This document shows positions 262 through 18,383 of a DNA stretch of 64,000 bases, one piece after another (position 1 is the stretch's first letter; every line of letters begins with the position of its first letter). The notes below the pieces were generated by a model, which ran no database searches, had not been told where the DNA came from, and worked only from the letters and a program-made list of their open reading frames with translations. The stretch covers positions 1 to 64,000 of the forward strand of contig MKWE01000003.1 of the NCBI GenBank assembly GCA_001899585.1, written 5' to 3'. This DNA comes from Rhodospirillales bacterium 70-18 (GTDB taxonomy: Bacteria; Pseudomonadota; Alphaproteobacteria; Acetobacterales; Acetobacteraceae). The translations under genes and the position numbers were made by a program.

Positions 262-290
262 TTCACGATCGATCATCGATCCTCTATACT
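262..290 (+). promoter_or_regulatory. Candidate sigma70-type promoter of the OmpA/vWA operon
   Basis: A -35-like TTCACG (262-267) is separated by 17 nt from a near-consensus -10 TATACT (285-290). It lies about 130 nt upstream of the first ATG of the four-gene operon, in an otherwise gene-free stretch. Identified by eye only. Confidence 0.45.
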
Positions 291-422
291 TTCCAATGCG
301 GAACGTTACTTCGTCCGCTCGATCGTGCATAGTCGGTCTCTGTGCTGATTGTTATCTGAGTTGTCAAATGTCCCAAACGATCGTAACCTCGCAATCAATT
401 CCCGCCTCGTGAAGGAATAACG

Positions 423-1424: not shown

Positions 1425-1433
1425 GGGAACACC

Positions 1434-2780
1434 ATGAGCATCCCGCAGAAAGCAGACCATGCCGCCGATCCCGCAAAGGCGTTGCAAGACGCCTACCAGG
1501 AGGCATTAGGATTTCCGGTTAGTCGCGCGAGTAAGCTAGCAGTCACTCCCGCCAAAGCCTCCGAATGCGCGGAACAAGAGGCAAGCTTTCATACCATCGC
1601 CATTGACGCGAATGGCATGAGCGGCGGGATGCGCCTGAATCTCCTTCAATCTGTGCATGATCTTGCCTCAGAGTGGCGCGCACTGTGGAACGACTTTGAA
1701 GTCGCAATTCAGCCGAAGATGACAGATATCAACGCTGTCGAAAAACTGCATGCCGAGGTAGCGGAGGAAGAGAGAAAGAGGGACGAGGCACTGGAAGCGG
1801 TCGAACGCGAACTTCGGCAGAACCCCAAATACGAACAAATAGATGACCATCATAGTCGCTCAAAGGATTCCTTTGACGCCTTTCGCGACAAATACGGAAA
1901 TCGCAGCGCTACTATGTTCGCTAGCACCTTAAGTTATTGGCTTTTGTTATCTCTTGTATTGATTACTGAATGTTTTATTAATTATCATGCGTTCAACGCC
2001 TTCTGGGGCGTTCCTGCAGTGGCTTTCGGCACCACATTGGTTCTCGGCGTTTTACTTGCCTTATCTTCGCATGGTCATGGCGAGCTTCTTAAGCAATGGT
2101 CATTCCGCTTCGGGCCCGAACGTGATCCCGCTAAACGCTGGACCGATTGGCGCATGTTTGGCATGTCGACCACCGCGCTGGTGATCGTGCTAGCTTTCAC
2201 GGGATGGGCGCGCTGGGCAGCCGCAATTGATATGCTTGGAAATCAGAGTCAGGCGAGCGCGCTCGGAAATATCGGCGTGGTGCAAATCAACCCGCTACGC
2301 GATGTGCTTGTCTCGCTGATCGCAAACCTCGGTGCGTGGATGCTCGGGGTCTTCATCTCCTACCTCGGGCACGACCCAGATCCCGACTACATGTCAGCGA
2401 CGAAGCAGTTTCTGAAGGCACGACGGGCCTGGAACCAAGCCCGAGAGGCGCATTCAGTCCGCCTACAGCATCTTATTGCGAAAGCAGCAAAGACAATTGA
2501 AGAGAAGACCAAGGCGGCAGAGACCCGCAAAAAGGCCGTTACACGCGAGATGGATATGCTTAAGCAAGTCGCCAGTCGCGGCGATGCGGTATGGCACGAA
2601 CTAGAGCAGGTCACCAAGCGTAACGTCGAGATCTATCGTGATGCGCTGGTGCGAGTTGCACTTGCCCATTCCGGCCAGGTTCAAATTGTCCGGACCGACA
2701 CCAACACACCGTTCTCGCCCTTCGATTACAAAGCGATGCAGATCGCGCTGCCTCAACACCTAATGCGGGGGGGAGCGTAA
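1434..2780 (+). CDS. Four-TM inner-membrane protein with coiled-coil arms, function unknown
   Basis: 448 aa, no signal peptide. A soluble N-terminal region with a charged helical stretch (about 100-130) precedes four hydrophobic helices near residues 163-183, 190-211, 242-262 and 289-311. After the last helix comes a short motif (LGHDPDPDY, 311-319) and then a long charged coiled-coil-like helix (about 325-400). I do not recognise the family. The TM-plus-coiled-coil build recalls motor- or stator-like membrane proteins, but no MotA/ExbB signature is evident. The ATG at 1434 is preceded by GGGGA. The gene lies 9 nt after the OmpA lipoprotein and 2 nt before the exported vWA-like protein, so the products probably form one envelope-spanning complex (inference). 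Confidence 0.75.
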   Translation: MSIPQKADHAADPAKALQDAYQEALGFPVSRASKLAVTPAKASECAEQEASFHTIAIDANGMSGGMRLNLLQSVHDLASEWRALWNDFEVAIQPKMTDINAVEKLHAEVAEEERKRDEALEAVERELRQNPKYEQIDDHHSRSKDSFDAFRDKYGNRSATMFASTLSYWLLLSLVLITECFINYHAFNAFWGVPAVAFGTTLVLGVLLALSSHGHGELLKQWSFRFGPERDPAKRWTDWRMFGMSTTALVIVLAFTGWARWAAAIDMLGNQSQASALGNIGVVQINPLRDVLVSLIANLGAWMLGVFISYLGHDPDPDYMSATKQFLKARRAWNQAREAHSVRLQHLIAKAAKTIEEKTKAAETRKKAVTREMDMLKQVASRGDAVWHELEQVTKRNVEIYRDALVRVALAHSGQVQIVRTDTNTPFSPFDYKAMQIALPQHLMRGGA

Positions 2781-2782
2781 CC

Positions 2783-3940
2783 ATGAGGCGCCTGCTCTTC
2801 CTCGTCTTAGCCTTGGCGCCACTTACCTTCAGTCGCACCGTGCACGGAGAGGGTCTTTTCGGCGGCAGCAACAAGCTCGATCCGTCATTTTGTGGACAAA
2901 GCAGCCTCCGGCAGACCGTCATTTATGTTGATGATAACGTCCTAGTGAATGGCCAAAATAATTGGCTCCATAGCATCTATGATAAATTGACCGCCACGTT
3001 GATGCCCGGTGAGCGAACCACTCTCGTGGAGCTCTCTCCGACAACAGGTCAGAGCAGGGAACGCTGGACTGGCTGTTGGCCCGCCTACACACCTGCTGAA
3101 GCCGCAAAGCTCGCCAATCAGAGCCATTTTTTTTCGACTAGCCCCCTTGCTAACCTGAAAGAGCAGCAAGGGTTTTTCGCGCGCGACTTGGGAGTCGCAG
3201 TCGCAAAAATCGAGCAGGAACATGCGCGCGCGGCCTCGCGGGTAATCATAGATCCTGATAATCCGCCAACTCAGTCGATCATTCGCGCCCTAGTCTCAGA
3301 CGGCGCCCGCTATTCGCACACACAGGAGACGATCCGGGCGATTTTATACTCAAACCTCGCAGAAAGCAGCGATATTGGCTCAGTCTTCAAGCCATTGCCA
3401 AGCCCAGCGGTCAACTATGGTGCCAAGCTCGGAGCCTTCCTGCGCCGCAGCATCTTCTATGTTTTCGGCGTAGGCAGGAGCATCAAGGGCGACGGGAGCA
3501 TACAGGATAGAATTCGCGCATACTGGAGTGCGGCGTTCCAGTCCATGGCTGCGAACATAGGCGGTATGGGGACGGACCTCAACGTTCCGAACGTTGTGCC
3601 GGTGGCCGCCCACAATTTCGACCTGCTGCTCAAGGATGGGGGCAGTACGCTGAATGGCCGATTGTCGCTCCTGACTGGCAGCGATGGAACACTCGTCGAT
3701 AGTTGGCTCGGCATCGTCCGCCTTCGTACCGCCGCATTGAACGGAACCTTTATCTGCAGCGGTCCGACAGATACGCCATCTTGTACACTCCAGGCGACCA
3801 CTACCGGCGGGGTCGTGACCATGAGCCCGACAGAGACCGTTAGTCTGTCAGGTAACGACTCACCAACGATGACCGGGACGATTGGCGTGCAGGGATCAAA
3901 CGTGAGCCTGCCGCTCGCAGCTGCTCCAGCGAAACACTGA
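2783..3940 (+). CDS. Exported protein with degenerate vWA-like fold, function unknown
   Basis: 385 aa. A hydrophobic signal peptide (about 1-22) predicts export. Residues 44-60 read as the first strand and metal loop of a von Willebrand A fold (VIYVDDN at 46-52), but the canonical DxSxS MIDAS is not intact. A helix, then ERTTLVELSP (77-86), and later RAILYSNLAESSDIG (185-199) and IFYVFGVGR (224-232) match the expected order of vWA strands. The C-terminal 100 residues are Ser/Thr/Gly-rich and probably beta-rich. The vWA reading comes from strand pattern, not a database hit. The gene follows the four-TM protein by 2 nt with GGAG as ribosome site. A role in binding a partner in the periplasm is inference. 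Confidence 0.75.
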   Translation: MRRLLFLVLALAPLTFSRTVHGEGLFGGSNKLDPSFCGQSSLRQTVIYVDDNVLVNGQNNWLHSIYDKLTATLMPGERTTLVELSPTTGQSRERWTGCWPAYTPAEAAKLANQSHFFSTSPLANLKEQQGFFARDLGVAVAKIEQEHARAASRVIIDPDNPPTQSIIRALVSDGARYSHTQETIRAILYSNLAESSDIGSVFKPLPSPAVNYGAKLGAFLRRSIFYVFGVGRSIKGDGSIQDRIRAYWSAAFQSMAANIGGMGTDLNVPNVVPVAAHNFDLLLKDGGSTLNGRLSLLTGSDGTLVDSWLGIVRLRTAALNGTFICSGPTDTPSCTLQATTTGGVVTMSPTETVSLSGNDSPTMTGTIGVQGSNVSLPLAAAPAKH

Positions 3941-3978
3941 TACTGCATCGTCCGAACGATAAGAAACAGGAAGCATTC

Positions 3979-4548
3979 GTGATGATCCGTGCCGCCCGCC
4001 TACCCGTCGTCGGTCTGTTCTTCCTGAGCATGACCACCGCCACGCTGACCGCAGGCTGCACCAATCAGCCTTACACGTCTCCAGAACAGCAGGCGCAGAA
4101 CGCCTGTCGGGTGTTCGGACCGAAGACCCTTTCCGGCGCAGCCGTGGGCATGTTGGGCGGTGCTGCCGGCGGAGCGAGTCTTGGAGCGATTGCTGGCGGA
4201 AGGCGTGGTGCGCTGATCGGAGCCGGTATTGGCGCGCTTGCCGGGTTGATCAGCGGCCTCGCCGTTGGTCATGGCTTTGACCAGCGCGATTGCGCGGAAG
4301 CGCAGACGGCACTTGCGCAGATGCGCCATGCGCATGTCGGGCAGAGCGCCTACTGGACGGACCCGCAGACGGGCAGCCATGGCTCGTACACAGCATTGGG
4401 TGCGGAATATTCAGTCGCGGGCAACAACTTCTGCCGTCGCGTGCGCCAGGACACGACGCTACATGGCCAGAGTCCGACAACGCAGGAACTGGTGACCTGC
4501 CGCACTGCCGATGGCGACTACACGACGGTAAAGGAGCCAGCGGCCTAG
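3979..4548 (+). CDS. Glycine-zipper lipoprotein, 17-kDa surface-antigen-like
   Basis: 189 aa from a GTG at 3979, or 188 from the adjacent ATG at 3982; an AGGAA site favours either. It has a lipobox TAGC with Cys27, followed by a glycine-zipper hairpin (about 50-90) rich in GxxxG repeats, and a C-terminal domain with CRTADGDYTTV. This arrangement is typical of the RT0821/17-kDa rickettsial surface antigen group. Glycine zippers insert in or span membranes, so it may be the outer-membrane part of the upstream complex (inference). The stop TAG is unusual: its TA is the target dinucleotide of the IS630-like element and its G is the element's first base. The sequence beyond the element also begins with G, so the original stop was TAG as well and the protein is not truncated. 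Confidence 0.8.
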   Translation: MMIRAARLPVVGLFFLSMTTATLTAGCTNQPYTSPEQQAQNACRVFGPKTLSGAAVGMLGGAAGGASLGAIAGGRRGALIGAGIGALAGLISGLAVGHGFDQRDCAEAQTALAQMRHAHVGQSAYWTDPQTGSHGSYTALGAEYSVAGNNFCRRVRQDTTLHGQSPTTQELVTCRTADGDYTTVKEPAA

Positions 4549-5596
4549 AGCAGACTCCGTTCATTCCGGCTCGTATCCTGCTGCGCTGAAGTAGTTTGCG
4601 CACTCGGCTGGGGTGAACTGGTCGATTGCGGTGCCGATTGCACCCCACAGGTCTGCGATGCTGCGTGCGGCGGCTTTGCGCAGGATGGCCTTGAGCTTGG
4701 CGAAGGCGTTCTCGATCGGGTTGAAGTCTGGCGAGTAGGGCGGCAGGTAGAGCAGCCTTGCGCCGGCTGCCTCGATCAAGGCTCGAATGTCCGCGACCTT
4801 GTGGGCCGGCAGGTTGCCCATCACCACGATGTCGCCGGCTCGCAGCGTGGGTGCCAGCACATGGCGGACATAGGCGCGGAATGCCTCAGCGTTCATTGGC
4901 CCGTCGAGCACCATCGGTGCGGTCATGCCGGACAGGCGCAGGGCACCGGTGAAGGTGGCCGTCTTCCAGTGGCCATGCGGCACCGGCGAACGGCAGCGCT
5001 GGCCTCGGAGCGCCCGGCCGCGCAGACGGGCCGTCTTGGTGGACGCACCGGTCTCGTCGATGAACACCAGGCGTTCAGGGGCGAGTTCAGGCTGCGCGTC
5101 GAACCACGCCTGACGCCGCGCGAACACGTCGGGCCTGTTCTGTTCGCTGGCGTGCGCGGTTTTTTTGAAGGTCATCCCGTGGCGGTCCAGGAACCGCCAC
5201 ACCGTGCTGGGGGCAACCCGTAGGCCATGCTCGCGCGCCAGCAGGTCCGTCAACTCCATGATGGTGATGTCCACCTCGTTGGCTATGACGCTGAGGATCA
5301 CGTCCCGATGCGCCTCGATCCGATGCGAGCGAAGGTCGCCACCTTTGGGCAGCGCCTCGATCGCACCGGTCGCGCGGAACCTCCGCACCCAGCGGATCGC
5401 CGTGGCAATGCCAATCCCGAACCGCTCCGCCGCAGCACGCCGCGACAAGCCGCCATCAACCGCCGCAATCACCCTTGCGCGTAGATCCGTCGATAAGGCC
5501 CGAGCCATCCATGCCGCCTCCTGCCACCACGATGGTGAATCAGATCAGCGCCGCGTCGGGGAAGAACTTTCGAATCGGATCGATCAGGGCATGCTC
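4548..5596 (-). mobile_element. IS630-family insertion sequence, 1,049 bp, TA target duplication
   Basis: The element is bounded by TA dinucleotides at 4546-4547 and 5597-5598, the target duplication expected for IS630/Tc1-mariner-type elements. Its ends are imperfect inverted repeats: the left end starts GAGCAGACTCCG and the right end, read inward, starts GAGCATGCCCTG. By hand count 17 of the first 26 positions match. It holds one transposase gene on the minus strand. Removing the element with one TA restores a continuous sequence in which the upstream lipoprotein still ends in TAG. Confidence 0.85.
4561..5508 (-). CDS. IS630-family transposase, catalytic Asp replaced by Gly
   Basis: 315 aa. 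An N-terminal helix-turn-helix region (about 1-60, with [21 protein letters not shown]) binds DNA. The DDE catalytic domain has the first Asp in VFIDETG (D151) and the third acidic residue in the [17 protein letters not shown] block (E266). The middle motif, normally VVMDNLPAHK, reads [10 protein letters not shown] here: the codon is GGC where GAC is expected, so residue 231 is Gly. Loss of this metal-binding Asp should abolish transposition, although the frame is otherwise full length. The gene fills almost the whole element between the inverted ends. It is either very recently inactivated or contains a sequencing error at this base. Confidence 0.9.
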
Positions 5597-5883
5597 TAGT
5601 CAACGCGCTCTCCCCGTCACTCACGGAAATTTTTATCCTGCCTGTGCCTTCGTCCACCCGCGGCGGGGGCCCGCTCGCCCAGGATGAGCGGGATGGAGGA
5701 GTCTGTTCACGCAGGCGGAGTCAACCTCTGCGCAAATGTACCTCGTTTGGAGCGATGTTGGGGGCCACTCCGGGCTCTGAGCCGTCTTCCCGGCTTGTAG
5801 GTAGGCCTGGGGGCGCGGTGCCGATCGGCGTAATGAGACCTGTGTGTGAGCAGACGTGCGTGGGGGACCCGACCAAACGCTTG

Positions 5884-5933
5884 GAATTCAATGGGCTACC
5901 GCGCCGATCGGCGGCAAACACCGGCGCCGATCC
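5884..5933 (+). repeat. 50-nt dispersed element, copy B
   Basis: It begins GAATTCAATGGGCTACCG and ends GGCGCCGATCC, with CCGATCGGC between. It aligns gap-free with copy A (37/50) and with copy C at 14084-14133 (33/50), and with one gap to copy D at 15065-15113 (36/50); all counts were made by hand. It lies 273 nt upstream of the tRNA-Lys-derived repeat, a layout repeated at copy D. Confidence 0.65.
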
Positions 5934-6206
5934 ACATATCAAATGCCATGAAGTCGGCGGACTCCGGTCGTTGACACCTATTCACGTTCTACGATCTGTG
6001 ACCCTGCCTCGCCCCGGCGCGATTTCGGTGGCCCGCCGTGGCCATCGATGCGCTGAGTTCCGTCCCACGCCATTCCCCTACGCGCATCGTGGCCGAAAGG
6101 AGGTCAGCGGCGGCGAATGTCACGACCACAGCGCCCAAGGTTGGTGCCAAAGTAGCGGATCAGTTCCGAAAGGCGGGCGCTGTTGGTCAAGCGGTCGTTG
6201 CCGAAA

Positions 6207-6260
6207 ACGAACTCTTAATCAGCGGGTCGTAGGTTCGAATCCTACTGCGCCCACCATTCC
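6207..6260 (+). repeat. Attachment-site-like direct repeat, tRNA-Lys(CTT) 3' half, copy 1
   Basis: 54 bp identical to 15459-15512. From 6211 it reads as the 3' half of a tRNA: anticodon loop CTCTTAA (anticodon CTT, Lys), 3' strand TCAGC of the anticodon stem, variable loop, a perfect GTAGG/CCTAC T-stem with loop TTCGAAT, an acceptor strand TGCGCCC, and A-CCA. The bases before it (AACGA) cannot pair with TCAGC, so the tRNA 5' half is absent. Duplicated tRNA 3' ends of this kind are classic products of tyrosine-integrase insertion. Confidence 0.8.
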
Positions 6261-6427
6261 CTTCAAGGGGTTATGGGAGGGGCGGCGGTTTTCGCGGGTG
6301 GGCATCCCACGCGATTCCCCCTAAACGCCCCGAAAGTTCGCCGATCCCCCCAACATGACCCTGGCGGTGTGCGCCAGTGTCTGGCGTCCAGCCGTGCGGG
6401 TTGTCGCTCTACCGGGACGGGACGGGG

Positions 6428-7091
6428 CTACCCTCCGAGGTACCTGGCCGACTTCGCGGCAGGATCAGCCGTGAGGCGCAGTCGCGCAGCGCGGCTTGGC
6501 TCAGCCGCCAATTCGGCTAGGTTGTGCGCCTCGCGAAGGATGGCTTCGATCAAATCTTCCGCGGTGACGATCTCCGGGGCCGACAGGGTTCCGAGGCTGC
6601 TCAGGCGAGCGGCCGACGGGAGACGCCGCAGTTGCTGGGCCTCGTTAGTCGCCGGTCCGATGCTGGTCTCCAGATCGGACCGCGCCTTGGAGTCCTCCGC
6701 GTCGAATGTGCCGAGAACGTCGGTTGCCTTGCGCAGCGCTTCCGCCTTTTCATGCTCGAAGTGAGCCTTGATGGCGGCGAGATCAGCTTCAATCGTAACG
6801 TCGGAGCCTGGAGGCGGAACGGGCCTTGACGGTCGAATAGAGGAATGCTTCGCGAAGGTTGCCTCGAGATCCGCGAGAGCCCGATTGTAAGCCTCGTCTG
6901 CGGCTTTGATCTCTGCACGACGCAGTTTGGCGCTGCCGATACCAGTTCAGCACCGTCCGCGACGGCTTGTCGGAGAACGAAAACGGCTGGTTGTCGGAGC
7001 CGATGCCGATAGCGCGACCGCTCACGAGGTCGTCGCAGAGCGACGCCACCGTATGCAGATGTAGCGGTCTTGGCTCTTCCGTGTCTGTCAT
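6428..7091 (-). pseudogene. Frameshifted gene of unknown function
   Basis: From an ATG at 7091 the minus strand encodes about 50 plausible residues (MTDTEEPRPLHLHTVASLC ... SFSDKPSRTVLNWYR), and then the frame turns into arginine/serine-rich nonsense. The next frame takes over smoothly from about 6940 with an acidic, helix-rich sequence (SAKLRRAEIKAADEAYNRAL ... ARYLGG) and stops at 6428. Removing one base near 6932-6945 joins the halves as NWYR-SAKLRRAEI, so this looks like a single-base insertion. The joined product would be about 220 aa, soluble and helical, with no family I recognise. An upstream frame (to about 7260) may be part of the same decayed locus. Confidence 0.55.
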
Positions 7092-7997
7092 CCTGTCTCG
7101 CAACCGACGAGCCCGACCAGGGCTCTACTAAGTAGCCTTCTCCAACCGAGTCCAACGCAATGGAAATTACGTCGAATTCGTGAGGAATGGGAACGGATAG
7201 CCCGAGGTCGGGATCTATCTCCCACCGACTCGGAGCCATCGCCGCCGGTTCTGGCAGCATCAGTCAGCTGGAAGACGGCCGAAGAATAGGCACCCGAGGA
7301 AGAGCCACGGCAGAACGGGATTGCTTTGCCGTCACCCGCCTAGCGCCCGCGTCGTGGTGTAAATTCGGGCGCATTGCCATAATGGGGCCTTTTGCGACCC
7401 GCAGCGGCTACGCCAAGGCCTCCCCGCTTCATGATCTGGAGCGCGCTTCCACCAACAGGGCAAAAGCCGCCGAAGCTTTGCTGCGGCTATAGTTAGAAGC
7501 GATCGCCAGGAAACGGTTCGCATCTATTCTTGACCACTGTCACGTGGCTACCCTGCCCGACTAGAGCCAGAACCCGACCGAGCACCATTCGCGCTAAGCC
7601 CAGTCCGACCATACCGACGTTGAGCATGGGCTGAGTGGCGATGAAAATGATCTGCCTGCAAGTAGGCGCACAGGGGCTCCACCAAACACGAGAGACTTTG
7701 ATAGTTTATCTCGACGATCGACGCTTTGACCCGGCGCTAGTTCCTGACACAAATGAGATATAAATTGTAACGAATATAGAGTAATAATTAAAATTGTAGA
7801 ACATAGTTATTGATAAAAGAATCACTTCTTGATAAGAATAATTTTAACATAACGCATAATAACGTCGATAGATCATCGTCATTTAATACCGGAAGCATGG
7901 GCCCGAAATGCAACAACGATAGTTTTCTCAATTTGCGGACCTCAATACATCGTGCCCTGGGTCGGTGTCGCGTCTGGGCATCGACGCACATCTCCGG
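7092..7997. other. Intergenic stretch with gene remnant and AT-rich tract
   Basis: No intact gene is visible. The stretch contains a short 6-phosphogluconate-dehydrogenase-like remnant (7493-7627, minus) and a very AT-rich tract of about 125 bp (roughly 7743-7868) just beyond the 3' end of the 1063-residue gene. The tract is unlike anything else in the window and may be silenced foreign DNA, a terminator zone or an old replication/transfer site. Confidence 0.45.
7493..7627 (-). pseudogene. Possible 6-phosphogluconate dehydrogenase N-terminal remnant
   Basis: 44 codons from ATG 7627 to TAA 7493. The product begins LNVGMVGLG, followed after a short scrambled part by a GSHVTVV strand. This resembles the start of 6-phosphogluconate dehydrogenases (MxIGxVGLGxMGxN...GHxVxVxDxN), but the second half of the Rossmann glycine motif is disrupted. 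Nothing downstream continues the family. The identification is weak and rests on the first 35 residues. Confidence 0.3.
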
Positions 7998-10900
7998 TCA
8001 CAGCATTGCGAGTTTCTCGCGTTGCAGCTCCGCCAGATGCACTAGATGCTTGGTGCCGAACTGGTCGGCAAGGTCGTACATGCGGCCGACATCCTGACAT
8101 GCAGCCTTGATGATGTTAGCGCGCAGGGAGGGGCCGGTCAGTTGGAGTTCAGCGATGGCGCGCAAAACCTTGATGCGTTCGTGCAGAAGCCGGATCCAGA
8201 AGCGTGGCCGGCTGTCTGGGCTTGGCATGGTGGCTTCGGCGCGGGCCAGCCACTTCAGCGCCAGCCACGGTGCGTGCGCGTGGATGCGGGCCAGGCTCGA
8301 CTCTATGATCAGCAACTGCACATGCTCCATCGGGTGGCGGTAGACGTTGCGCCATAGCCGGTCGGCGTGCTGACGCGCTTGCAGATAAAACGCATCGCCC
8401 TGGGACCCGGCGTCGCCGGTGCGCTCGAAATGCCGGCCGAGCTTGAGCGCCACCCTAACGAAGACCCGCGCTGTCGCGGCGGAAATCTGCGGGTCGGTCG
8501 GGCTACCTGCCGCCGCGACCGCCGCGGGCAGGTTTTGCGACACCCTGAAGTAATAGTAGGCTGTCCCGAAGCGCTGCGCGGCCAGAGTGGCGTCGCCGTG
8601 TGCGGTGCCGTCCGCGTCGTACGCTGAGACGCACGCCAGACGCTCAATCACGTCGACGATCTCGGCGAGGATGCGCCGGCCGTGCGGCCGCGCCACCACG
8701 CTGCGCAGCGGGGTGTCATCGCTGGCCAGTCGGCGGACCTCGGCGGCCACCGCATCCTCCAGGACGGCGTGTTCGGTGAGCGGAGCGGGCGCGCGGAGGC
8801 CGAAATCGCCAAGCGTCTTCAGCCGCGCCCCGCACAGCGCGATGGCTACCCCGTATCCCTCGGTCAGTGTATACCAGTCGGCGGTCACCTTCGCATAAGG
8901 CGCCCGATCCCGTTCGGCACCCGGCAGCGCCTGGAGATGCGCACTGAGGCTGTTGAAGTCACCACGGCGCAGCGCGGCGCGGATCTGGTGTTCGCGCACC
9001 TCTCGGGCGACGTCGGCCAGCGTGCGTTGGGCGCCCAACACGGTGATTGCGTCCAGGAATAGCTGGCAAAGCTCGGCTTTCACCGTATCGAGGCCAAAAG
9101 TGCGCGACATCGCCCAGGCCGGCGCCTGTTCGAGGCCGGCGCGGTAATGCTCCCAATACAGCGCGCGCAGCCGTTCGCCCAGTGGCAACGGCAGCGCGGT
9201 CGGCGCGTGGTGCGAGCGCTCCGCTAGCTGTGGCCAGTGATGTACGCTGAGCACGCCGTGAAGAATCGCCTGCCCCAGCCGGCGGTAGAACGCGGCGCTG
9301 GCGTGCTCGCCGGTGGGGGCGCTGCGCACGAGCAGGCCGTGCTGCTGCAGGCTCATCTCGGCCAGCACGAAATGCATCGCCGCTAGTTCGGCGCGGGCAT
9401 GCGGCGTGGCCTGCATGGCGCGTTGCAGATCGGCGCGGACGGCGGGATCGGCGATGTCGAGCGCGTCGGCGCGGCCGGGCGCCGGCGGCGGCGTGCCCCA
9501 GGTGGCGGCGTCGTATTCCGCTTCCAGATCGTCGCTGTAGAGATGGGCGATGGTTTCGCCATGGCATTGTACTAGTACACCCTGCAGCGCCGAAGTGACC
9601 AGCGTCACCGCCGCCTCCGGCGCGGTCAGCGGATCCGGGCGAAACAGCAGGTACCAGCGATGCAGCAACCGGTACAATGTTTTCACCCGCAGCTCGGTGG
9701 GTGACAGTACGCAGAACGCCAGTGCCGGCCATGCGGCGTCGCCGCGTCGGCGCAGGCGCGCGACCAGGGCGGCGCACAGATCGGCTCGGCCTGGCGTGGT
9801 CGCGGCTAGCGCGCGCAGGGTATTGCGCGCGGACGCGCCATCAGCGCGGGCGAGCACGGCCTGCGCCCGCATCAGCCACACCATCGTCTCGGTCATCAGC
9901 AACTGCGGCGAGACTTGGCCGAACGCCTCCTGCAACTCCGGTTCGACCAGGGTCTTGCGCAGGGTGCCGGTGACACTGCCCTGCCGTGTCGGCGCCGCCA
10001 GCGGCTGGCTCGTCCGGCACAATGTTGGCAGAAGCGGCGCCAAGTCGTTGTCGCCGAGCACGATCACCCGGGTGCGGGTGAACACTGCCGGGTCGTGCAC
10101 CAGCATCTCTTCGCTGCGCAGCGGCTGCAGCAGGCGCCACAGCAGCGGCACCACCGGCTCGTCGCGCAGATAGCGGGTGAGGTGCGGCCGGCAACCGCCA
10201 TCGAAGTTGCAGCCGTCAAACACCAACACCGCCGGCGTGACTGCGATGTGGGCGCGGATGCGCGCGATCGCCGCGGCGGTTTCGGCCTCGGTAGCGCAGG
10301 GCGTGGCGCCACTCAGGTCTTCGTTGCGGTAGAATGCCTCCAGCCTAGCGACGATAGCCGGCAGGCTCGTATCGCCTGCGCCCGGACGGCCGCGGGCGAC
10401 CGGGATGTAGCACCACGGCCGCACGTCCTGGCGCTGCTCGGTGCGCCACAACTCCGCCGCCAGGGCGGTGAGCCCGTTCGGAATGTTGTCCTTCGAAGGG
10501 ATGCAGAATACCGGCCAGCGCGCCTCGGCGCCGCCAAGGTGCTGGCGCACCAGGTCCGGCAGCGAACCGCGGGCCGGGTCGGCGAAATATTGGTAGGTCG
10601 GGTCGGCCAGGATCGCCTTGATCAGCCCATCGCCGGTTGCCAGGGCCGACGGACGCGGCGTGCCAGCGAGCCAGTCGCTCAGGCGGGTGGGCGCGTCATG
10701 GCCGCCAAATGGCTGGGTGAGGAACGGCTCGACCGCACGGGGGGCGTTGTCGCCGGCTAGCTCCGCAAGCGCGCGGGCGGCCATGGCCTCGATGGCCGGC
10801 CGGGTGGGCTTCGGCGTGCTGAAGCGGTAGTCCGACCGGATTGGGGTGCGGAACAGTTTCCTCAGCGTTTCTTTGTGGTCGCGTTCGGCCCCGGCGGCGC

Positions 10901-11189
10901 CGAAGCGGTGGGCGAAACCGCTGGGGGTGCAGCCAGTGGCGCAGCGCAGGATCTGCATGCGCAGCCGAAAGCCGAGGCTGGGCGCGTCGCCCCGCCGCGC
11001 GGGCTTCATCACGGTGCCCTGGGCGACGTGCAGGCTGTCGTGAGGGTTAGCCAGCGCCAGCGCCCAAAGACGTGCGATCTCAGCGGCCAGCGCTGCCGCC
11101 GCGGTGGCGTTGAGGCGGGGGGAGGGGGGCGCGCGGTGGACCGGGCCGCGATGGCTCGGCGCGCGCATCGGCGTCGGCTCGCTGGTCAT
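7998..11189 (-). CDS. Large soluble protein of unknown function (1063 aa)
   Basis: 1063 aa, no signal peptide or membrane segment. I recognise no family. The N-terminal third holds a stretch (about residues 215-390) with alternating strands that could be a divergent NTPase-like core: VFCIPSKDN followed by a helix where a P-loop would sit, AVLVFDGCNFDGG resembling a Walker B strand, and TRVIVLGDND resembling a sensor strand. No intact Walker A is present. The rest, especially the last 350 residues, is a run of amphipathic Ala/Leu-rich helices suggestive of TPR-like repeats. That architecture (core plus helical repeats) is common in STAND-type proteins, but this is only pattern reading. The gene is divergent from the DUF4407-like/kinase pair across a 319-bp gap. 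The start at 11189 has only a distant GGAG. Confidence 0.7.
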   Translation of the reverse strand: MTSEPTPMRAPSHRGPVHRAPPSPRLNATAAAALAAEIARLWALALANPHDSLHVAQGTVMKPARRGDAPSLGFRLRMQILRCATGCTPSGFAHRFGAAGAERDHKETLRKLFRTPIRSDYRFSTPKPTRPAIEAMAARALAELAGDNAPRAVEPFLTQPFGGHDAPTRLSDWLAGTPRPSALATGDGLIKAILADPTYQYFADPARGSLPDLVRQHLGGAEARWPVFCIPSKDNIPNGLTALAAELWRTEQRQDVRPWCYIPVARGRPGAGDTSLPAIVARLEAFYRNEDLSGATPCATEAETAAAIARIRAHIAVTPAVLVFDGCNFDGGCRPHLTRYLRDEPVVPLLWRLLQPLRSEEMLVHDPAVFTRTRVIVLGDNDLAPLLPTLCRTSQPLAAPTRQGSVTGTLRKTLVEPELQEAFGQVSPQLLMTETMVWLMRAQAVLARADGASARNTLRALAATTPGRADLCAALVARLRRRGDAAWPALAFCVLSPTELRVKTLYRLLHRWYLLFRPDPLTAPEAAVTLVTSALQGVLVQCHGETIAHLYSDDLEAEYDAATWGTPPPAPGRADALDIADPAVRADLQRAMQATPHARAELAAMHFVLAEMSLQQHGLLVRSAPTGEHASAAFYRRLGQAILHGVLSVHHWPQLAERSHHAPTALPLPLGERLRALYWEHYRAGLEQAPAWAMSRTFGLDTVKAELCQLFLDAITVLGAQRTLADVAREVREHQIRAALRRGDFNSLSAHLQALPGAERDRAPYAKVTADWYTLTEGYGVAIALCGARLKTLGDFGLRAPAPLTEHAVLEDAVAAEVRRLASDDTPLRSVVARPHGRRILAEIVDVIERLACVSAYDADGTAHGDATLAAQRFGTAYYYFRVSQNLPAAVAAAGSPTDPQISAATARVFVRVALKLGRHFERTGDAGSQGDAFYLQARQHADRLWRNVYRHPMEHVQLLIIESSLARIHAHAPWLALKWLARAEATMPSPDSRPRFWIRLLHERIKVLRAIAELQLTGPSLRANIIKAACQDVGRMYDLADQFGTKHLVHLAELQREKLAML

Positions 11190-11508
11190 TTCTGCGATCG
11201 CGGCTCCTTGGTCCCTGCGACGACGCTAGGCCATCGGATGGGATGCGCAAAGATGCCAGAAGCGTATCAGCGGTAAAAACTGGCGTCGAACGGGAATAAC
11301 TGCCGGCGGTTACGCGGGGTCGACGGTTTTTCCCAGTTTGGGGATCTGGCGGAATCTATGCGGTAGGAAAGGTGTCCGAGGCGTTAATGCGACCTCAATC
11401 CTGGCCATGGGCGGGCAAAAAAAATCGTAATTCCGCTTGTCAGGCGGGGACGGCCCGATACCGTTGGCTAGAACTCGCATTAAGCGAGCCGGGGAAAGAG
11501 AGGCCGCC
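11190..11508. other. Divergent intergenic region
   Basis: This 319-bp gap separates the 1063-residue gene (minus) from the DUF4407-like/kinase operon (plus) and should hold both promoters. A weak candidate for the plus side is TTGTCA (11437-11442), a 16-nt spacer and TACCGT (11459-11464). I find no clear promoter for the minus gene, and no gene or strong repeat. Confidence 0.4.
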
Positions 11509-12972
11509 ATGAGTTCCACGAACGACCGGGTCGGCGCTGCCAGCACCGCCTTCGCCACCGCCCTCAAATGCTCCACCGCCTTCGTCACGGCGCCGTTGCG
11601 GCTGGTGCGCATCGTGTTGGTCTCGCTCGGCGGCGACGACCCCGAAGTGGTCGCCAAGGCCAGCATCGGAGCCCAGATCACCTCGATGCGGATGGGCTTG
11701 CAGGTCGCGCTCGGCGCCGCGATCCCGACCTTCGGTGTCTACATGGTGCTGCGCATGCAGTTCACCGGCCCGGTGGCGACCTCGTACGCCATGGCCGGCG
11801 CGCTGATGGCCGGCGGCATCGCCGCGGCGGCGGAGACCAACGCGCTGCAGCGGCTGCACCAGATGGAGGCCGAGCGCGAAGCTGCCCGCAACGGCTTCCG
11901 CAGCCGCATCCCCGGCAACGGCCTGGTGCGTCGCGCCCTGATGCTGCTGACCCGGCTCGGCATGGCGGTGGTCGGCAACTATTTCTACGCCTCGATCTTC
12001 CTGGCTGTGATGCTGGCGCCCGAGATCGCCACCCAGAAAGCCGAGGACGCCGCCCTGCACAACCGCCCGATCGTCGCGGTGGCGACCGCCTTCGTCGATG
12101 GCCGGCTGGCTAGCCTGCGCGGTGACAGCGTGACCAAGCGCGACGCCTATCTCACGGTGCTGGCCAAGCCCCCGGCGCCGCCGTCCGACGACCCCAGCGC
12201 CAGGCTGCGCGCTCCGATCGACACCGAGATCACCACCTTGGCGAGCCAGTTGCAGGCCGCCCGCCAGCAGCGCGACGCGGTGGCCGCCACGCTTGCCGGG
12301 CTGCGCACCCAGTTGAGCTGCGAGGAGGACGGCAAGCGCTGCGGTGACACTAATTCCACCCAGGGGCTGAGCGGAAAGGGTCCGAATTGGCGGCTGATCA
12401 ACAACCTGATCCGAGACAATCAGGTCACCGCGGACGGCCTCGACCGGCGCATCACCGCGTTGCTCGACGAACGGACGGCGTTGTTCACCCGACGCGACAT
12501 GATGATCCGCCAGGTGCAGGTGTTGCAGGACACCGCCCTGCGCGCGTCGGCCGCGGCGCTTGAGCGCGAGATCGGCGCGGCGCAAGCAGCGGCCACCGCC
12601 GCCGCCGCCGCCTTCACGAACGCGTTCGTGCGGCGGGCGGCCGACATCCAGCAGGAAAGCGAGCGGCGCGGCTTCCTGCCGCCGGAAGTGGGCATCTCCA
12701 GCGACATCGCCGCGATGACCCGCATCGAGGCGAGGCCCGATCGCGGCTGGTGGATGGGGCTGCTGAAATGGAGCCTGGTGATGATGGAACTCAACGCCTT
12801 GCTGGCCGCCTTCTTCTGGCCGGTGCGGCGGTTAGTACCGGTGAAGGAGTATATCCCCTTCGTTATCGGGGCCGAGGAGGCCGCCTTCGACGCCAACCGC
12901 ACCCGCGCCAGCCGCCCGCCTCTGGAAGCCTATGGCCCGTCGCGCGGCCCGATCGGGGGGCACGCGCGATGA
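11509..12972 (+). CDS. DUF4407-like membrane/coiled-coil protein
   Basis: 487 aa from the ATG at 11509, chosen because GGGAAAGAGAGG lies just upstream; a longer frame begins at 11437. The motif LGGDDPE (40-46) followed by paired TM helices (about 61-82 and 88-108), a third near 146-170, a long charged coiled-coil region (about 215-390) and a last helix (about 418-437) matches the layout of the DUF4407 family. A small Cys pair lies in the coiled-coil region (CEEDGKRC). The stop overlaps the kinase start as ATGA, so the two are translationally coupled. Known DUF4407 proteins have no settled function. Here the protein is probably the membrane partner or substrate of the kinase (inference). Confidence 0.75.
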   Translation: MSSTNDRVGAASTAFATALKCSTAFVTAPLRLVRIVLVSLGGDDPEVVAKASIGAQITSMRMGLQVALGAAIPTFGVYMVLRMQFTGPVATSYAMAGALMAGGIAAAAETNALQRLHQMEAEREAARNGFRSRIPGNGLVRRALMLLTRLGMAVVGNYFYASIFLAVMLAPEIATQKAEDAALHNRPIVAVATAFVDGRLASLRGDSVTKRDAYLTVLAKPPAPPSDDPSARLRAPIDTEITTLASQLQAARQQRDAVAATLAGLRTQLSCEEDGKRCGDTNSTQGLSGKGPNWRLINNLIRDNQVTADGLDRRITALLDERTALFTRRDMMIRQVQVLQDTALRASAAALEREIGAAQAAATAAAAAFTNAFVRRAADIQQESERRGFLPPEVGISSDIAAMTRIEARPDRGWWMGLLKWSLVMMELNALLAAFFWPVRRLVPVKEYIPFVIGAEEAAFDANRTRASRPPLEAYGPSRGPIGGHAR

Positions 12973-13922
12973 GCGTCAGCATGGCGCGGATGCCCGAGAT
13001 CGAGGGCATCCGGATGATCGGGGCGAGTGGCTCGGGAGCGACGGCCACGGTGTTCCGCGGTCACCAGATCGCCGTGGACCGGCTGGTCGCTGTGAAGACC
13101 GTGCCCTGGCCGCTCGACTCGGTCGAGCGCGCGGCGATGCAGCGCCGGTTCCGCCGGGAGGCCGAGGCGCTCGGCCGCCTAGCACATCGGCACATCGCCG
13201 GCATCTACTATTACGGCGAGGCCGATGGCTTCGGGTATTGCGTGCAGGAGTTGATCGACGGCCGCTCGCTGCGTTCGGTGCTCGAGGCCGGCGAGCGGTT
13301 GCCGCTGGCGGCGATCGTGCTCATCATGGGCCAAGTGACCTCGGCGCTCGGGCATGCGCACCAACGCGGCGTGATCCATAGCGACGTGAAACCCGGCAAC
13401 ATCGTGCTGCGCCCGGACGGCTCGGCGGCGCTGGTCGATTTCGGCATCGCGCGGGTGACCGACAGCAACGCGACGGTGACCCAGATGGTGCAGGGAACGC
13501 CGCTCTACAGCGCGCCGGAGCAGTGGAACGCGATGGCGCTGGACGAGCGCACCGACATCTACGCCGCCGGCGCTACCATGCTGCATCTGCTGACTTGGCA
13601 GCGCCCCTTCACCGGCACGGCGGAGCAGGTGATCCATCGCCAGTTGACCGAAGAGGCGCCGCCGCCGTCCCGGCTCGACCCCGGCCTGCCGCCGTATTTC
13701 GACCCGGTGATCCGCGCTGCCATGGCCAAGGACCCGACGCGCCGCTACGCCACCGTCGCCGATTTCGCTACCGCCATCGAGCGCGCCTGGACTCTTTGCC
13801 ACAGCGCCTCCGACCCGGCCGGGCCAGTGCTGTCGCCGGCCCGACGGGTGCTGCCGTCGCGCCGGTCGCGGCGCCGGCCGGGCCTTTGGCGCAAGATGCG
13901 GCGCTTCCTCAACGCGCTTTAG
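12969..13922 (+). CDS. Serine/threonine protein kinase (non-RD type)
   Basis: 317 aa, starting at the ATG that overlaps the upstream stop (ATGA). It is a Hanks-type kinase with all main motifs: Gly-rich loop GASGSGATATV (18-28), Lys43 in VAVKT, Glu64 in RREAEAL, catalytic loop HSDVKPGN (137-144), DFG (157-159), GTPLYSAPEQ (176-185) and DIYAAGATML. The catalytic loop has Ser where most kinases have Arg before Asp (HRD), making it a non-RD kinase that may not need activation-loop phosphorylation. The C-terminal tail after about residue 285 is short and very basic and has no TM or sensor domain, so membrane coupling would have to come from the DUF4407-like partner. It faces away from the 1063-residue gene; together they could be a signalling or defence cassette (inference). 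Confidence 0.9.
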   Translation: MSVSMARMPEIEGIRMIGASGSGATATVFRGHQIAVDRLVAVKTVPWPLDSVERAAMQRRFRREAEALGRLAHRHIAGIYYYGEADGFGYCVQELIDGRSLRSVLEAGERLPLAAIVLIMGQVTSALGHAHQRGVIHSDVKPGNIVLRPDGSAALVDFGIARVTDSNATVTQMVQGTPLYSAPEQWNAMALDERTDIYAAGATMLHLLTWQRPFTGTAEQVIHRQLTEEAPPPSRLDPGLPPYFDPVIRAAMAKDPTRRYATVADFATAIERAWTLCHSASDPAGPVLSPARRVLPSRRSRRRPGLWRKMRRFLNAL

Positions 13923-14262
13923 CAGGTGGACAGACGGATATCCGGGTTTCCTCTCGCAAGGGGACGGCCTGTTTGACACCATGATCAAGAATTCCGCCTT
14001 CTGAGGACTATGCTGCTGACCGCAGGATAGATCGCGGCTTCCGATGTAATCTAGCGCCAGTGATGGGGTGTACTAAATTTTTCGAATTCAATGGTTTACC
14101 GTTCGAATAGACTCCGCATCGCGGTGCCAATCCGCGGCCAGAGCGTTGCGAATTGCCTAGTCCAGAGGTTAGCCCGTTCTTGAGACAAGTGAATGGCTCG
14201 CTCGTCTGGACAATGTGGAACGCAAAAACGCCAATCGTCGAGGCGTGAAGGGACGACAGAAA
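13923..14262. other. Intergenic stretch with one dispersed element
   Basis: About 340 bp without a convincing gene, lying between the kinase and the unknown gene at 14263. It contains copy C of the 50-nt element (14084-14133). No terminator hairpin with a T-run is evident after the kinase. Confidence 0.45.
14084..14133 (+). repeat. 50-nt dispersed element, copy C
   Basis: It begins GAATTCAATGGTTTACCG and ends GGTGCCAATCC, exactly 50 nt as in copies A and B, and matches copy B at 33 of 50 positions without gaps; the first ten bases are identical. Unlike copies B and D it is not followed by a tRNA-derived repeat but by the gene at 14263. Confidence 0.55.
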
Positions 14263-14823
14263 ATGGCTCCAGACTTGAAATTTGCCCATGGCACAGTGAA
14301 CGAAACTCTCAGCAGCGGCGCCCAACTGTCACGGTTCAGGCTGCTGTCAGCGGGCTTGAAGCCAATAGTTGACCCGAATTCGGATGCGTCGAAGGTGCCG
14401 CACAACTACAATGGCGGCCTCTTCGCGGGGCGTATGTCTCGGCTCCAAAAAGGAGACCGTTTGTTCCGATTTAGTAACAGTGATAAGCGAACCCTAGAGG
14501 AACGGTTCGAGGGCGATTGGTGGTTTGACTGGGAGTGCCTTGCCACGATCCGTGCGGCCAGCCGCATTGAGAACGCTGACTTCGCCGCCACCGCCCGCTC
14601 ATTCCTTGGCATGCTTTGGGGTGACAAGACGAATCTGGTGGGGGGACTGCTGACCGCGGATTTCTGGTGCCTGAAGGGCCTGACCGGCGCGTTTGGCGAC
14701 CAGCAACAACATATGTCCGGCCCGCCACGCACCGACGTGATGCAGATATACGTTCCTGGTGGGCTGAAGTTGGCGTACTTCAGCCAGCCTCGCGACAACC
14801 TGTTGATTAGCGGGATCGTCTGA
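14263..14823 (+). CDS. Hypothetical protein (186 aa), island cargo
   Basis: I chose the ATG at 14263 because GGGAC lies upstream; a GTG at 14215 would add 16 residues. No family is recognised. The protein is soluble with mixed composition. Visible features are GDRLFRFSNSD, an aromatic cluster around EGDWWFDWE, and a glycine/leucine stretch LVGGLLTADFWCLKGL. The residue makeup is normal for a real protein and base composition is poorer in GC than the core. It is the last gene before the second tRNA-Lys repeat, so it belongs to the same 9.25-kb island as the kinase cassette. It could be a cassette component or an independent gain. Confidence 0.5.
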   Translation: MAPDLKFAHGTVNETLSSGAQLSRFRLLSAGLKPIVDPNSDASKVPHNYNGGLFAGRMSRLQKGDRLFRFSNSDKRTLEERFEGDWWFDWECLATIRAASRIENADFAATARSFLGMLWGDKTNLVGGLLTADFWCLKGLTGAFGDQQQHMSGPPRTDVMQIYVPGGLKLAYFSQPRDNLLISGIV

Positions 14824-15064
14824 GGCTACGGCGGATCGCCAGATTGCGGCGGCGTGCATCGTTCCCAGTCTGTCGTTCGTAACGTGTTAAAGTCGGCTCC
14901 TTTTTGTAAGCCCTTGTAAACGATCGCTTAGGACCCGAAAATGGTTGCAGATTCGGGTGAATATCGGCATCCTGAGGTGCCGTCGCGAGTATAGGCCGGG
15001 GGAGGCTTCGCATTTGCTTCTGTGCCTGTGATTTGGCGTGCGGGAAGGACCTTCAAAACGCAAA

Positions 15065-15113
15065 AAATTCAAAGGTTATTGCACCGATCGGCACCCGACC
15101 CCGGCGCCGATCC
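15065..15113 (+). repeat. 50-nt dispersed element, copy D
   Basis: It reads AAATTCAAAGG at the left and GGCGCCGATCC at the right, and with a single one-base gap it matches copy B at 36 of 50 positions. As at copy B, a tRNA-Lys-derived repeat follows, here 345 nt downstream. The two end modules also share shorter blocks between these landmarks. Confidence 0.6.
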
Positions 15114-15458
15114 ACACGTGCACGCGTATAGGCGGAGCGATCGCACCCGTTCCACAGCGCCGGGGTGTTCGACATTCTGCCCTCGGGGGCTACGGCGAGG
15201 GAGGTCGACCACGGCTTCCACGATCTGCGTCCGTGCCTCGGTCGGGCGAATGGGGAGGGACGCGAATTGCTGCGACCCGCTAACTCACTGTGGCCATAGG
15301 TGCGACGGGTTCCGTCCCACGCCATTCCCCCGTGGGCGTCGCGGGCAACGGGAGGTCAATCAGGGCCAACGTTGCAACCGCAGCGCGCGAAATCCGAGGC
15401 AAAGTGGAAGATCGGCCCCGAAAGGCGGACGTTGGATGGCAACGCGTCGTTGCCGAAG

Positions 15459-15512
15459 ACGAACTCTTAATCAGCGGGTCGTAGGTTCGAATCCTACTGC
15501 GCCCACCATTCC
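15459..15512 (+). repeat. Attachment-site-like direct repeat, tRNA-Lys(CTT) 3' half, copy 2
   Basis: 54 bp identical to 6207-6260, with the same tRNA-Lys(CTT) anticodon loop, T-arm, acceptor strand and CCA (ending at 15508). Here too the upstream bases do not supply the tRNA 5' half. Similarity to copy 1 continues on both sides at a lower level, to about 15575 on the right. It marks the probable right boundary of the 9.25-kb island. Confidence 0.8.
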
Positions 15513-16104
15513 GTTCAAGGGGTTACGGGACGGGCGGCGGGTTTTGCGCTCGGGCTTCCCACGCTATTCCCCCGAAATGCCCTGAAGCCCCCGTATTCCA
15601 CCACGACGCCCCTGCCGTCGAACGGGCATGCGCTTAAGCCCGATCGGGAATGACGCCGTCAGGCGACATCCTCCCCGCCTGCCCATATTGGTGGCGCCGG
15701 CCGAAGTCGGCTCGGGAGGCTGTGGCACGAGGCGAGGCGCGTCGGCCCGACAAGCGCTACTACATCGGCAAGACGCGCATGCGGAACTCGCATTCGGGCC
15801 CCAGTGAGGGCGTCGAAGACGGCGTCGGCCACAACAGCGTCGCCAAGCGACGCGGTCACTCGAACGGCTAGCGTAAGATCGACTGTCGACAGAACGCGGA
15901 GCCTGGGAAAGCGGAGCGCTGCAAGCGTCGTCGCCTTACGTTCGTCGATTACTGCCGCACCGCCCACGCCAGGCTGACGGCGTGGCAGATGGGCGGGCTG
16001 GAGATGGCCGGGCGATGAGGCACGGGCCTCCGGGTGCTGCCCGGCGGGGCCCGACCCGGTGCCAGGCTGCCGACGGTCGGACGCCGCTACCAGGAGCCGC
16101 CCCG

Positions 16105-16297
16105 ATGACCCTTTCCCCTGCCGCCACCATCGTGCCGACCGCGCGCCGCGGAGCGCCGGAACCGCCGCCTCGAGTTCCACCGCAAGCTGCCGACCGGCGG
16201 TCGCCACAAGGTGATCGACGCCCTGCTGCGCGGCGGCATCATCGCCGGGACGCAGGGCGACTTCGGCCCCGGTGACGGCGCCTTGAGCCGGTTTTGA
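16105..16297 (+). pseudogene. Decayed N-terminus of a DUF3489-like protein
   Basis: The segment starts MTLSPAATIV and, after a frame change, continues as LEFHRKLPTGGRHKVIDALLRGGIIAG before a stop at 16297. This resembles the N-terminal part of small DUF3489-type proteins (an LSxxQxxIL...AAxR start, then a GGxxxKVIDxLLxxGLI strand). The DUF3489 domain itself is missing and the frame is broken. Tentative. Confidence 0.35.
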
Positions 16298-16410
16298 GTC
16301 ACCCCAGTCAGACGCTACCTCCGAAATCGACTATGAGGCGGGCACAGAACTGGCATCCGGCGGTCTCCGACCAGTCGGATGCCATGATGCTCTCCAGCGC
16401 CTTGCTCACC

Positions 16411-17406
16411 TCACCGCCTTCCCTCGGTCAACGGCCGGGGGCGAGCGAAGTGGCAGGCGGCACTCTGGCCCGGGGCTACCTCGACGAGCGCCGGGCGCTC
16501 AGTCGAGCAGACTTCCTGCGCGATAGGGCAGCGCATATGGAAGGCACAGCCCGAGGGCGTGCGCGTCGGGCTCGGCACATCGCCGGTCAGCACGATCCGG
16601 GCCGGCCGCCTCTCGGGATCGGGATGCGGAGCGGCGGAGAGTAGCGCCTCGGTATAGGGGTGCTGCGGCGCGCCGTAGATCAGTGGCTTCGGTCCGATCT
16701 CCACGATCCGGCCAAGATACATCACCGCCACCCGATCGGCGATATGGCGAACAACGGCGAGGTCGTGGGCGATGAAGAGGAAGGAGAAGCCTCTCTGCTC
16801 CTGCAGGTCCTGCATCAGGTTGATGATCTGCGCCTGCACCGAGACGTCGAGCGCCGATACGGGCTCATCGGCCACGATGAATGCCGGATCGACCGAGATC
16901 GCCCGGGCGATGCCGATGCGCTGGCGCTGGCCGCCGGAGAACTGGCGCGGCCTGCGGTCCATGTAGGCGGCCGAGAGGCCGACCTTCTCCAGGAGTTCAG
17001 CCACGCGTTCCCGCCGCTCCGCCCGGCTCCGAACCAGGCCGAACACTTCCATCGGCTCGGCAATGATCTCGGCCACCGTGCGGCGGGGGGAGAGGGAACC
17101 GAACGGGTCCTGGAACACCATCTGCATCCGTTGACGCAGCAGGCGGAGCTCCTTCTTCGGCAAGGCGGTCAGCTCGCGACCCTCGAACATCACCCGCCCC
17201 TCGCTCGCCGGCAGGAGCTGCAACAGCAGCCGGCCGAGGGTCGACTTGCCGCAGCCGGATTCACCGACCATGGCCAGGGTTTCGCCCGCCAAGATCTGAA
17301 AGCTCACCCCATCGACGGCACGGACCGAGGCACGCTTCGGGCCGATCCGGAACTCTCTGTCGCCGAAGGTCTTGGTCAGGCCGATAGCCTCGACCAGGGC
17401 GCTCAT
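16411..17406 (-). CDS. Oligopeptide-type ABC transporter ATP-binding protein (OppF/DppF-like)
   Basis: 331 aa. A cytoplasmic ATPase of the peptide/nickel/opine importer family. Walker A is GESGCGKST, the Q-loop lies in [13 protein letters not shown], the signature is [14 protein letters not shown], Walker B is [12 protein letters not shown] and the switch His is in [10 protein letters not shown]. The C-terminal oligo-HPY region with the [14 protein letters not shown] cysteines, which often carries a 4Fe-4S site in this family, is present. It is the last gene of the dehydratase-transporter operon and overlaps the companion ATPase by 4 nt (ATGA). It powers the permease pair encoded upstream. 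Confidence 0.93.
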
Positions 17407-18383
17407 GCCGCGTCCTCTGCGGCGATGGCCCAGCAGGCGGCAAGATGGCCCGCGCCGTGGTGGATGAGCGGCGGCGTCTCTGTCGCGCAGCGATCGAGCG
17501 CGACCGGGCAGCGCGGGCGAAAGGAGCAGCCCTGTCGGCTCGATCCCGGCGTCGGCACCGAGCCAGGGATCTGGTATAACCGCCTGCGATCGTCGAACAG
17601 CGTCGGCACTGATTTCAGCAAGCCCTGCGTATACGGATGTTTCGGCCCAGCGAAGAGCGAGCGGATGCCGGCATCCTCCACGATCCGGCCGGCATACATC
17701 ACCACCACCCGCTCGCAGATCTCCGCGATCACGCCCAGGTCGTGGGAGATCAGCAGGATGGCCGACTTGTAGCGGCGGCGGATGTCGAGCATCAGCTCCA
17801 GCACCTGGGCCTGGATTGTCACGTCGAGCGCGGTCGTCGGCTCGTCGGCGATCAGCAGCTTCGGGTTGCAGGCCACCGCGATGGCGATCATCACCCGCTG
17901 GCGCATGCCACCGGAGAACTCGTGCGGATAGGCGCTCAGCCGGCTTTGCGGATCGGGAACGCCAACCAGGCCCAGAAGCTCGATCACCCGGGCACGGCGG
18001 CGCTCGCGGTCGGTCTCGCCATGCAGCATCAGCACCTCGGCCACCTGCTCGCCGATGGTCATCACCGGGTTGAGCGACGACATCGGCTCCTGGAAGACCA
18101 TCGAGATCTCCTTGCCGCGGATCGCGTTCATCCGCGACCTGGGCAGGGGCAGCAGATCGGTGCCTTCGAAAAGGATATGTCCGCTGACCCGACCAGGAGG
18201 TTCGGGAACCAACCGCAGGACCGAGAGCGCGGTGATCGACTTGCCCGAGCCGCTTTCTCCCACCAGCCCTACCGCCTCGCCGGGTCGGACCGCGAAGGAC
18301 ACGTCGTCGACCACGCGGACGGGGTTCCGAACCGGGCCGAATTCGACCGAAAGGCCGCGGATGTCGAGCAGCTTGCCGCTCAC
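17403..18383 (-). CDS. Oligopeptide-type ABC transporter ATP-binding protein (OppD/DppD-like)
   Basis: 326 aa from a GTG at 18383 that overlaps the preceding permease stop (GTGA); a longer frame upstream is a shadow. Walker A is GESGSGKS, signature [12 protein letters not shown], Walker [13 protein letters not shown] and switch His in LISHDLGV. The C-terminal HPY domain follows with KHPYTQGLL and a cysteine-containing GCSFRPRCP segment. It pairs with the OppF-like ATPase downstream as the heterodimeric motor of the importer. Confidence 0.93.

Follow-up and report, generated by a model that had tools for sequence, protein, structure and literature searches.

A DUF4407 gene coupled to a non-RD kinase gene faces a member of an apparently new, very rare protein family between tRNA-Lys-derived repeats

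Do three genes enclosed by tRNA-Lys-derived repeats in a genome of the Acetobacteraceae constitute one signalling cassette, or do they represent two units that came to lie back to back? This question is raised by a locus in a 64,000-nucleotide stretch (the window) of contig MKWE01000003.1 of Rhodospirillales bacterium 70-18. An earlier note, made from the sequence alone, had proposed a membrane-linked kinase signalling cassette, possibly with an antiphage role.

Gene layout and tRNA-Lys-derived repeats

The gene of the 1063-aa protein P0001 (positions 7998–11189, minus strand) was confirmed as an open reading frame. A divergent intergenic region of 319 bp (11190–11508), in which a consensus search detected neither a sigma-70-like promoter nor a terminator, separates it from the gene of the 487-aa DUF4407 membrane protein P0002 (11509–12972, plus strand; Pfam PF14362), whose start is most likely the ATG at 11509. 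The start of the gene for the 317-aa Ser/Thr kinase P0003 (12969–13922, plus strand; Pkinase) overlaps the stop of the DUF4407 gene (at 12972) as ATGA. GC contents at codon positions 1/2/3 are 0.73/0.53/0.83 for the 1063-aa gene, 0.66/0.52/0.91 for the DUF4407 gene and 0.69/0.52/0.90 for the kinase gene, and codon use of all three resembles that of a nearby ABC-transporter operon. Third-position GC of 0.83–0.91, as compared to 0.59–0.72 in the flanking genes, together with the ABC-operon-like codon use indicates that all three are true genes, which are better adapted than their flanks. Open reading frames and codon-position composition thereby confirmed the three genes, their strands, the divergent layout and the ATGA overlap as previously described.

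All three genes are enclosed by two direct repeats of 297 nt sharing 79% identity, the left one spanning positions 6038–6334 and the right one positions 15290–15586 (both plus strand). Each repeat contains a core of 40 identical nt (6217–6256 and 15469–15508, respectively), for which the chance expectation is none. These cores are identical to the 3' end of the genome's tRNA-Lys(CTT), whose intact copy is located on a different contig. Thus, direct repeats derived from a tRNA 3' end are present on both sides, and the repeat comparison and the match to the intact tRNA-Lys bear out the origin that had been ascribed to them. A tyrosine integrase (PF00589) was not detected on this contig and hence not between the repeats, which suggests either that a remnant of an island is left here or that the island was mobilized in trans.

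Several further features were observed in this region. Just upstream of the tRNA-Lys repeats, a second repeat pair of 43 nt (79%; 5894–5936 and 15074–15116) is present, showing that the duplicated block extends over ~440–510 nt. An IS630-type transposase gene (DDE_3; 4561–5508) is located just to the left of the left repeat. The stretch 7700–7900, next to the 1063-aa gene on its 3' side, is AT-rich, in contrast to the GC-rich neighbouring genes, and is possibly an insertion scar. Between the kinase gene and the right repeat, a 202-aa ORF of lower GC content and belonging to no family (14215–14823) may be island cargo or a chance ORF. From 16.4 kb onward the window resembles ordinary chromosome, containing ABC-transporter genes (Pfam) and an ORF that we take, by eye, to be FtsZ-like.

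Elsewhere in the window (423–3940), genes were found for an OmpA-family lipoprotein, the TM/coiled-coil protein P0008 and the secreted protein P0009. Homologous TM, secreted and OmpA genes occur together on conjugative plasmids of Rhizobium etli and Sinorhizobium fredii, and by sequence comparison the three genes appear to be a conserved uncharacterised module. In the R. etli locus (L085, 2128–15923), the module is located near DUF6119, thermonuclease and RNA-binding-domain genes, i.e. in a defence-like setting. A TM/secreted pair from Rhodovulum was considered as homologous to P0008/P0009 and rejected, as there is no similarity.

The DUF4407 protein and the coupled kinase

P0002 matches PF14362 with an E-value of 2.4e-10 and 40.6 bits (gathering cut-off 31.3), covering positions 4–265 of the 297 positions of the model, and hydropathy analysis revealed hydrophobic segments near residues 63–107, 152–170 and 418–439. 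Its previous description as a DUF4407-like membrane protein is therefore substantiated. The region between the last two hydrophobic segments (residues about 173–415; 12025–12753, plus strand) is predicted to form an extracytoplasmic coil, which holds Cys271 and Cys278, possibly linked by a disulfide. Both this membrane topology and a role as sensor are putative.

Close relatives of P0002 were absent from the samples of 60 and 120 genomes, the plasmids and the viral contigs that were searched, and a plasmid search with a different DUF4407 protein as query yielded no match. When the class was scanned for DUF4407, 24 of 385 genomes had matches at E 0.001 and 3 of 385 had matches over the cut-off; those below the cut-off look like coiled-coil matches. 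P0002 fits the family, yet a kinase neighbour is missing at the other two alphaproteobacterial DUF4407 loci that exceed the cut-off. A literature search returned no function for DUF4407, the family not being named in titles or abstracts.

The kinase domain of P0003 was recognized by the Pfam Pkinase model (E 1.3e-38). P0003 retains the G-loop, the VAIK Lys, the helix C Glu, the catalytic Asp, DFG and APE, and judged by these residues its active site appears to be complete, with the motif set of an active protein kinase present. In the catalytic loop (HSDVKPGN), HSD (residues 137–139; 13377–13385, plus strand) replaces the HRD that characterizes RD kinases; among related kinases this position is occupied by HRD in 33 of 34 cases and by HCD in one. 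Non-RD kinases do not rely on activation-loop phosphorylation in the customary manner. P0003 is soluble, with no membrane segment, and has a basic C-terminal tail. The HSD motif and the absence of a TM domain of its own, both stated in the earlier note, thus hold. The membrane helices and long coil of the DUF4407 protein, and its translational coupling to a complete soluble kinase, make it fairly likely that the two form a membrane-linked receptor-kinase pair.

The 1063-residue protein, its relatives and their neighbours

P0001 had been regarded as a member of an unrecognised family. Indeed, it gave no match in Pfam, PHROG, NCBIfam, PADLOC or PDB, and thus no match to a housekeeping family; PADLOC likewise gave no match for P0002. 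With P0001 as query, close relatives were absent from collections of genome contigs, viral contigs, plasmids and phages, and samples of the phylum (398 genomes) and of the class (385) returned its own genome only. The family sample (397 genomes) yielded, in addition to insignificant short matches, P0004 from an Acetobacteraceae MAG, i.e. from the same family as the window genome, which is 29% identical to P0001 over the full length. P0004 as query in turn detected a third member, P0005, on plasmid pRGUI01 of Rhodovulum sp. P5 (E 6e-38 between P0004 and P0005). Since P0001 and P0005 match directly at only 6e-8 in pairwise BLAST and not at all by phmmer, their link runs via P0004. By these alignments, the 1063-aa protein appears to belong to a new and very rare family with three known members, two of them full-length relatives of P0001. 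Conservation is best in a C-terminal helical block (residues 901–1010; 8160–8489, minus strand), which lies inside a confident model segment (pLDDT 60–85), and 22 positions of residues 901–1000 are identical across all three proteins. A weak match to the Tse2 ADP-ribosyltransferase (E 0.11–0.22, under the cut-off) was rejected as a chance match.

AlphaFold yielded weak models of P0001, with a mean pLDDT of 38 for the entire protein and of 51 for the core, and its predicted secondary structure is, at low confidence, nearly all helix. The strand-rich core followed by TPR-like helices that had been proposed is unsupported as worded; these low-confidence predictions point to a mostly helical protein with a small alpha/beta core at residues about 225–380 (10050–10517, minus strand). 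The order in this core is strand VFCI, helix, strand CYIP, helices, strand VLVFDG, helices and strand RVIVLGD, which in these weak models is the order of AAA+/STAND domains, with long helical stretches following. The Walker A position is occupied in P0001 by the loop FCIPSKDNIPNGLTAL (10461–10508, minus strand), which contains no GK[ST], and in the two relatives by INLHQRGMWQGLRAM and HIPSLGMPRGLSAL; the loop ends with GLxAL or GLRAM. The motif GxxxxGK[ST], expected of an active STAND/AAA+ NTPase, is absent from the entire sequences of the three members. All three carry a Walker-B-like strand (VLVFDG, ILIFEG and ILILDG; pattern [VI]L[VI][FL][DE]G) and a later strand (RxxxL; RVIVLGD, RIVILSD and RILVLSN). 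Foldseek top rows for the core model include ORC subunits and CED-4, a resemblance that we treat as a hint only because the best E-value is 0.046 and none is significant. VIA-align ranked different folds of Rossmann-like type first, with Z about 5, and of these the matches to UrtA and P450 reductase were rejected as common Rossmann-like arrangements. Neither iSTAND nor NACHT was matched in Pfam. According to the models, the 1063-aa protein looks like an inactive STAND-type NTPase, i.e. a disabled ATPase, and its STAND-like fold is putative.

The three members of the family have different neighbours. In the window, P0001 is arranged head-to-head with the DUF4407-kinase operon. In the MAG, P0004 is opposite to an operon encoding AAA ATPase, FeS_assembly_P-like, Trypsin_2, GNAT-like and colicin-DNase-like HNH proteins, and is also near an FGE-sulfatase/cold-shock gene and a gene for a PN-superfamily effector. 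In Rhodovulum, P0005 is opposite to genes for a secreted 202-aa, a 344-aa membrane coiled-coil and a secreted 397-aa protein, while a kinase gene overlapping a DUF3365 sensor gene is located 2.2 kb off its other side, past insertion sequences. The 151-kb plasmid gave no kinase match besides this one, and by a rough estimate the chance of a kinase match so near to P0005 is 6–7%. DUF4407 genes were found neither beside P0004 nor beside P0005, and a kinase gene was not found beside P0004. The head-to-head layout is therefore common to all three loci, and a sensor-kinase pair is nearby in two of them, the Rhodovulum sensor belonging to another family.

As an observation in its own right, the PN-superfamily effector, FGE-sulfatase/cold-shock, AAA, trypsin and HNH DNase genes of the MAG lie together at positions 143–17468 (locus L077), which is possibly an undescribed conflict island. 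Presumably, this locus also contains a phage-tail-like gene, which was identified by eye.

As the opposite operon differs in each locus, the three-gene set is not conserved, and the conserved co-occurrence of the three genes for which the earlier note had asked was not found elsewhere in the genomes sampled. Of the proposed membrane-linked kinase signalling cassette, the two-gene pair thus stands on its anatomy, whereas the three-gene cassette does not. Our best explanation, which we put forward tentatively, combines a receptor-kinase unit with a dead STAND-like partner and a possible role in defence. The DUF4407 protein would reside in the inner membrane, sense envelope stress or attack through the coiled segment outside the cytoplasm, and control the translationally coupled soluble non-RD kinase, which in turn would phosphorylate cytoplasmic targets. 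The 1063-aa protein would be catalytically dead and STAND-like, consisting of an alpha/beta core with no P-loop and of subsequent helices, and would serve as scaffold or sensor for whichever operon faces it, here the receptor-kinase pair. Located on a small tRNA-Lys-flanked island, the set may serve in conflict or defence.

Alternatively, and this reading is likewise a tentative one, two unrelated units, namely an ordinary one-component sensor-kinase pair and an orphan gene, may stand back to back within an island of mosaic structure and share their location only through repeated insertion next to tRNA-Lys-derived sequence. The different partner operons in all three loci speak for such a history, as do the transposase gene at 4561–5508, the tRNA-derived repeats and the genes of unlike composition in the region, as well as the contig being free of an integrase. 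However, all three known members are placed head-to-head, and the three window genes have in common a high GC content and a codon use that are unlike those of the genes on either side. The head-to-head placement in three loci could have arisen by chance.

Possible roles in conflict and defence

Regarding the combination of a receptor-kinase unit with a STAND-like partner, the iSTAND ternary systems come closest among those described. In these, an inactive STAND protein is combined with effectors that can be exchanged, FGS and peptidase domains among them, and some of the systems act at the membrane (PMC7159879). The likeness consists in the large size of the protein, its putatively inactive NTPase-like core and the variable neighbouring effectors, and the MAG neighbours of P0004 represent types of domain that occur in the iSTAND/VMAP ternary conflict systems (PMC7159879). 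In contrast to these systems, the present family has no Pfam match and its fold is weakly predicted. For the third component of the ternary systems, the strand order and the Walker-B-like motif fit, while the models are weak and the fold matches insignificant. Moreover, iSTAND ternary systems are defined by a MoxR-vWA pair (Kaur et al. 2020, PMC7159879). Genes for a MoxR AAA+ or a vWA protein were recognized neither beside P0001 nor in the Rhodovulum locus, and in the MAG locus an AAA gene is present and vWA was not recognized. As the pair was thus unrecognized in all three loci, we do not claim membership. That the 1063-aa family represents inactive NTPase-like hubs facing interchangeable effector operons, and hence a new modular class of conflict systems whose kinase version operates via a DUF4407 receptor, appears rather unlikely to us.

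It is also unlikely that the genes form an anti-phage system with the kinase as the toxic effector, released once the 1063-aa and DUF4407 proteins sense infection. Kinase modules can act in defence, as exemplified by the kinase-kinase-phosphatase module KKP (PMC11341870), which resembles the present genes in being kinase-based and on a mobile region. However, KKP comprises two kinases and a PP2C-type phosphatase, as compared to one kinase here and no phosphatase among the flanking ORFs examined. PADLOC matched P0003 with its PD-T4-6 models, but the NCBIfam PknB model scores equally well, so that these matches reflect generic PknB-like domains and are unspecific; indeed, 31 of 100 relatives in the family carry PknB-like kinases at E 1e-40. 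MAG relative P0004 is near defence-type genes, whereas near the window genes no defence gene was recognized and no known defence system adjoins them, and relatives were absent from phages, viral contigs and, bar one, plasmid collections. The antiphage proposal remains an idea: the PADLOC matches are generic, and a single distant relative, P0004, has a conflict-like neighbourhood. As none of the other genomes sampled combined the three genes, it is plausible but unproven that they act jointly, perhaps against phages; a role in defence or conflict is possible, but is suggested only by resemblance and by the neighbourhood of a single relative.

Finally, we consider it improbable that the pair regulates the envelope or a secretion machine as an envelope-stress or secretion-regulating kinase nearest to those of type VI secretion (T6SS) clusters: three of the best plasmid kinase matches are located in such clusters behind a DUF3365 sensor, but they are just 37–44% identical in the domain, many PknB-like kinases of the family score equally, and a T6SS gene was not seen near the window genes. 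The DUF3365-kinase pairs, in which the kinase gene directly follows the membrane-sensor gene (Caballeronia, Skermanella and Rhodovulum), are nevertheless alike in coupling a soluble PknB-like kinase behind a membrane sensor, and in this they speak for the receptor-kinase unit of the best explanation. They differ from the present pair, which has a DUF4407 sensor, HSD in place of HRD and neither T6SS nor PP2C phosphatase genes nearby. A Pseudoroseomonas kinase next to an OmpA gene was rejected as a further parallel, its surrounding genes being unrelated.

Returning to the tentatively preferred combination of a receptor-kinase unit and a dead STAND-like partner, the coupled kinase offers for the first time a testable indication that proteins with DUF4407 can include a receptor. 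If confirmed, the 1063-aa family would extend inactive-STAND conflict systems to kinase signalling.
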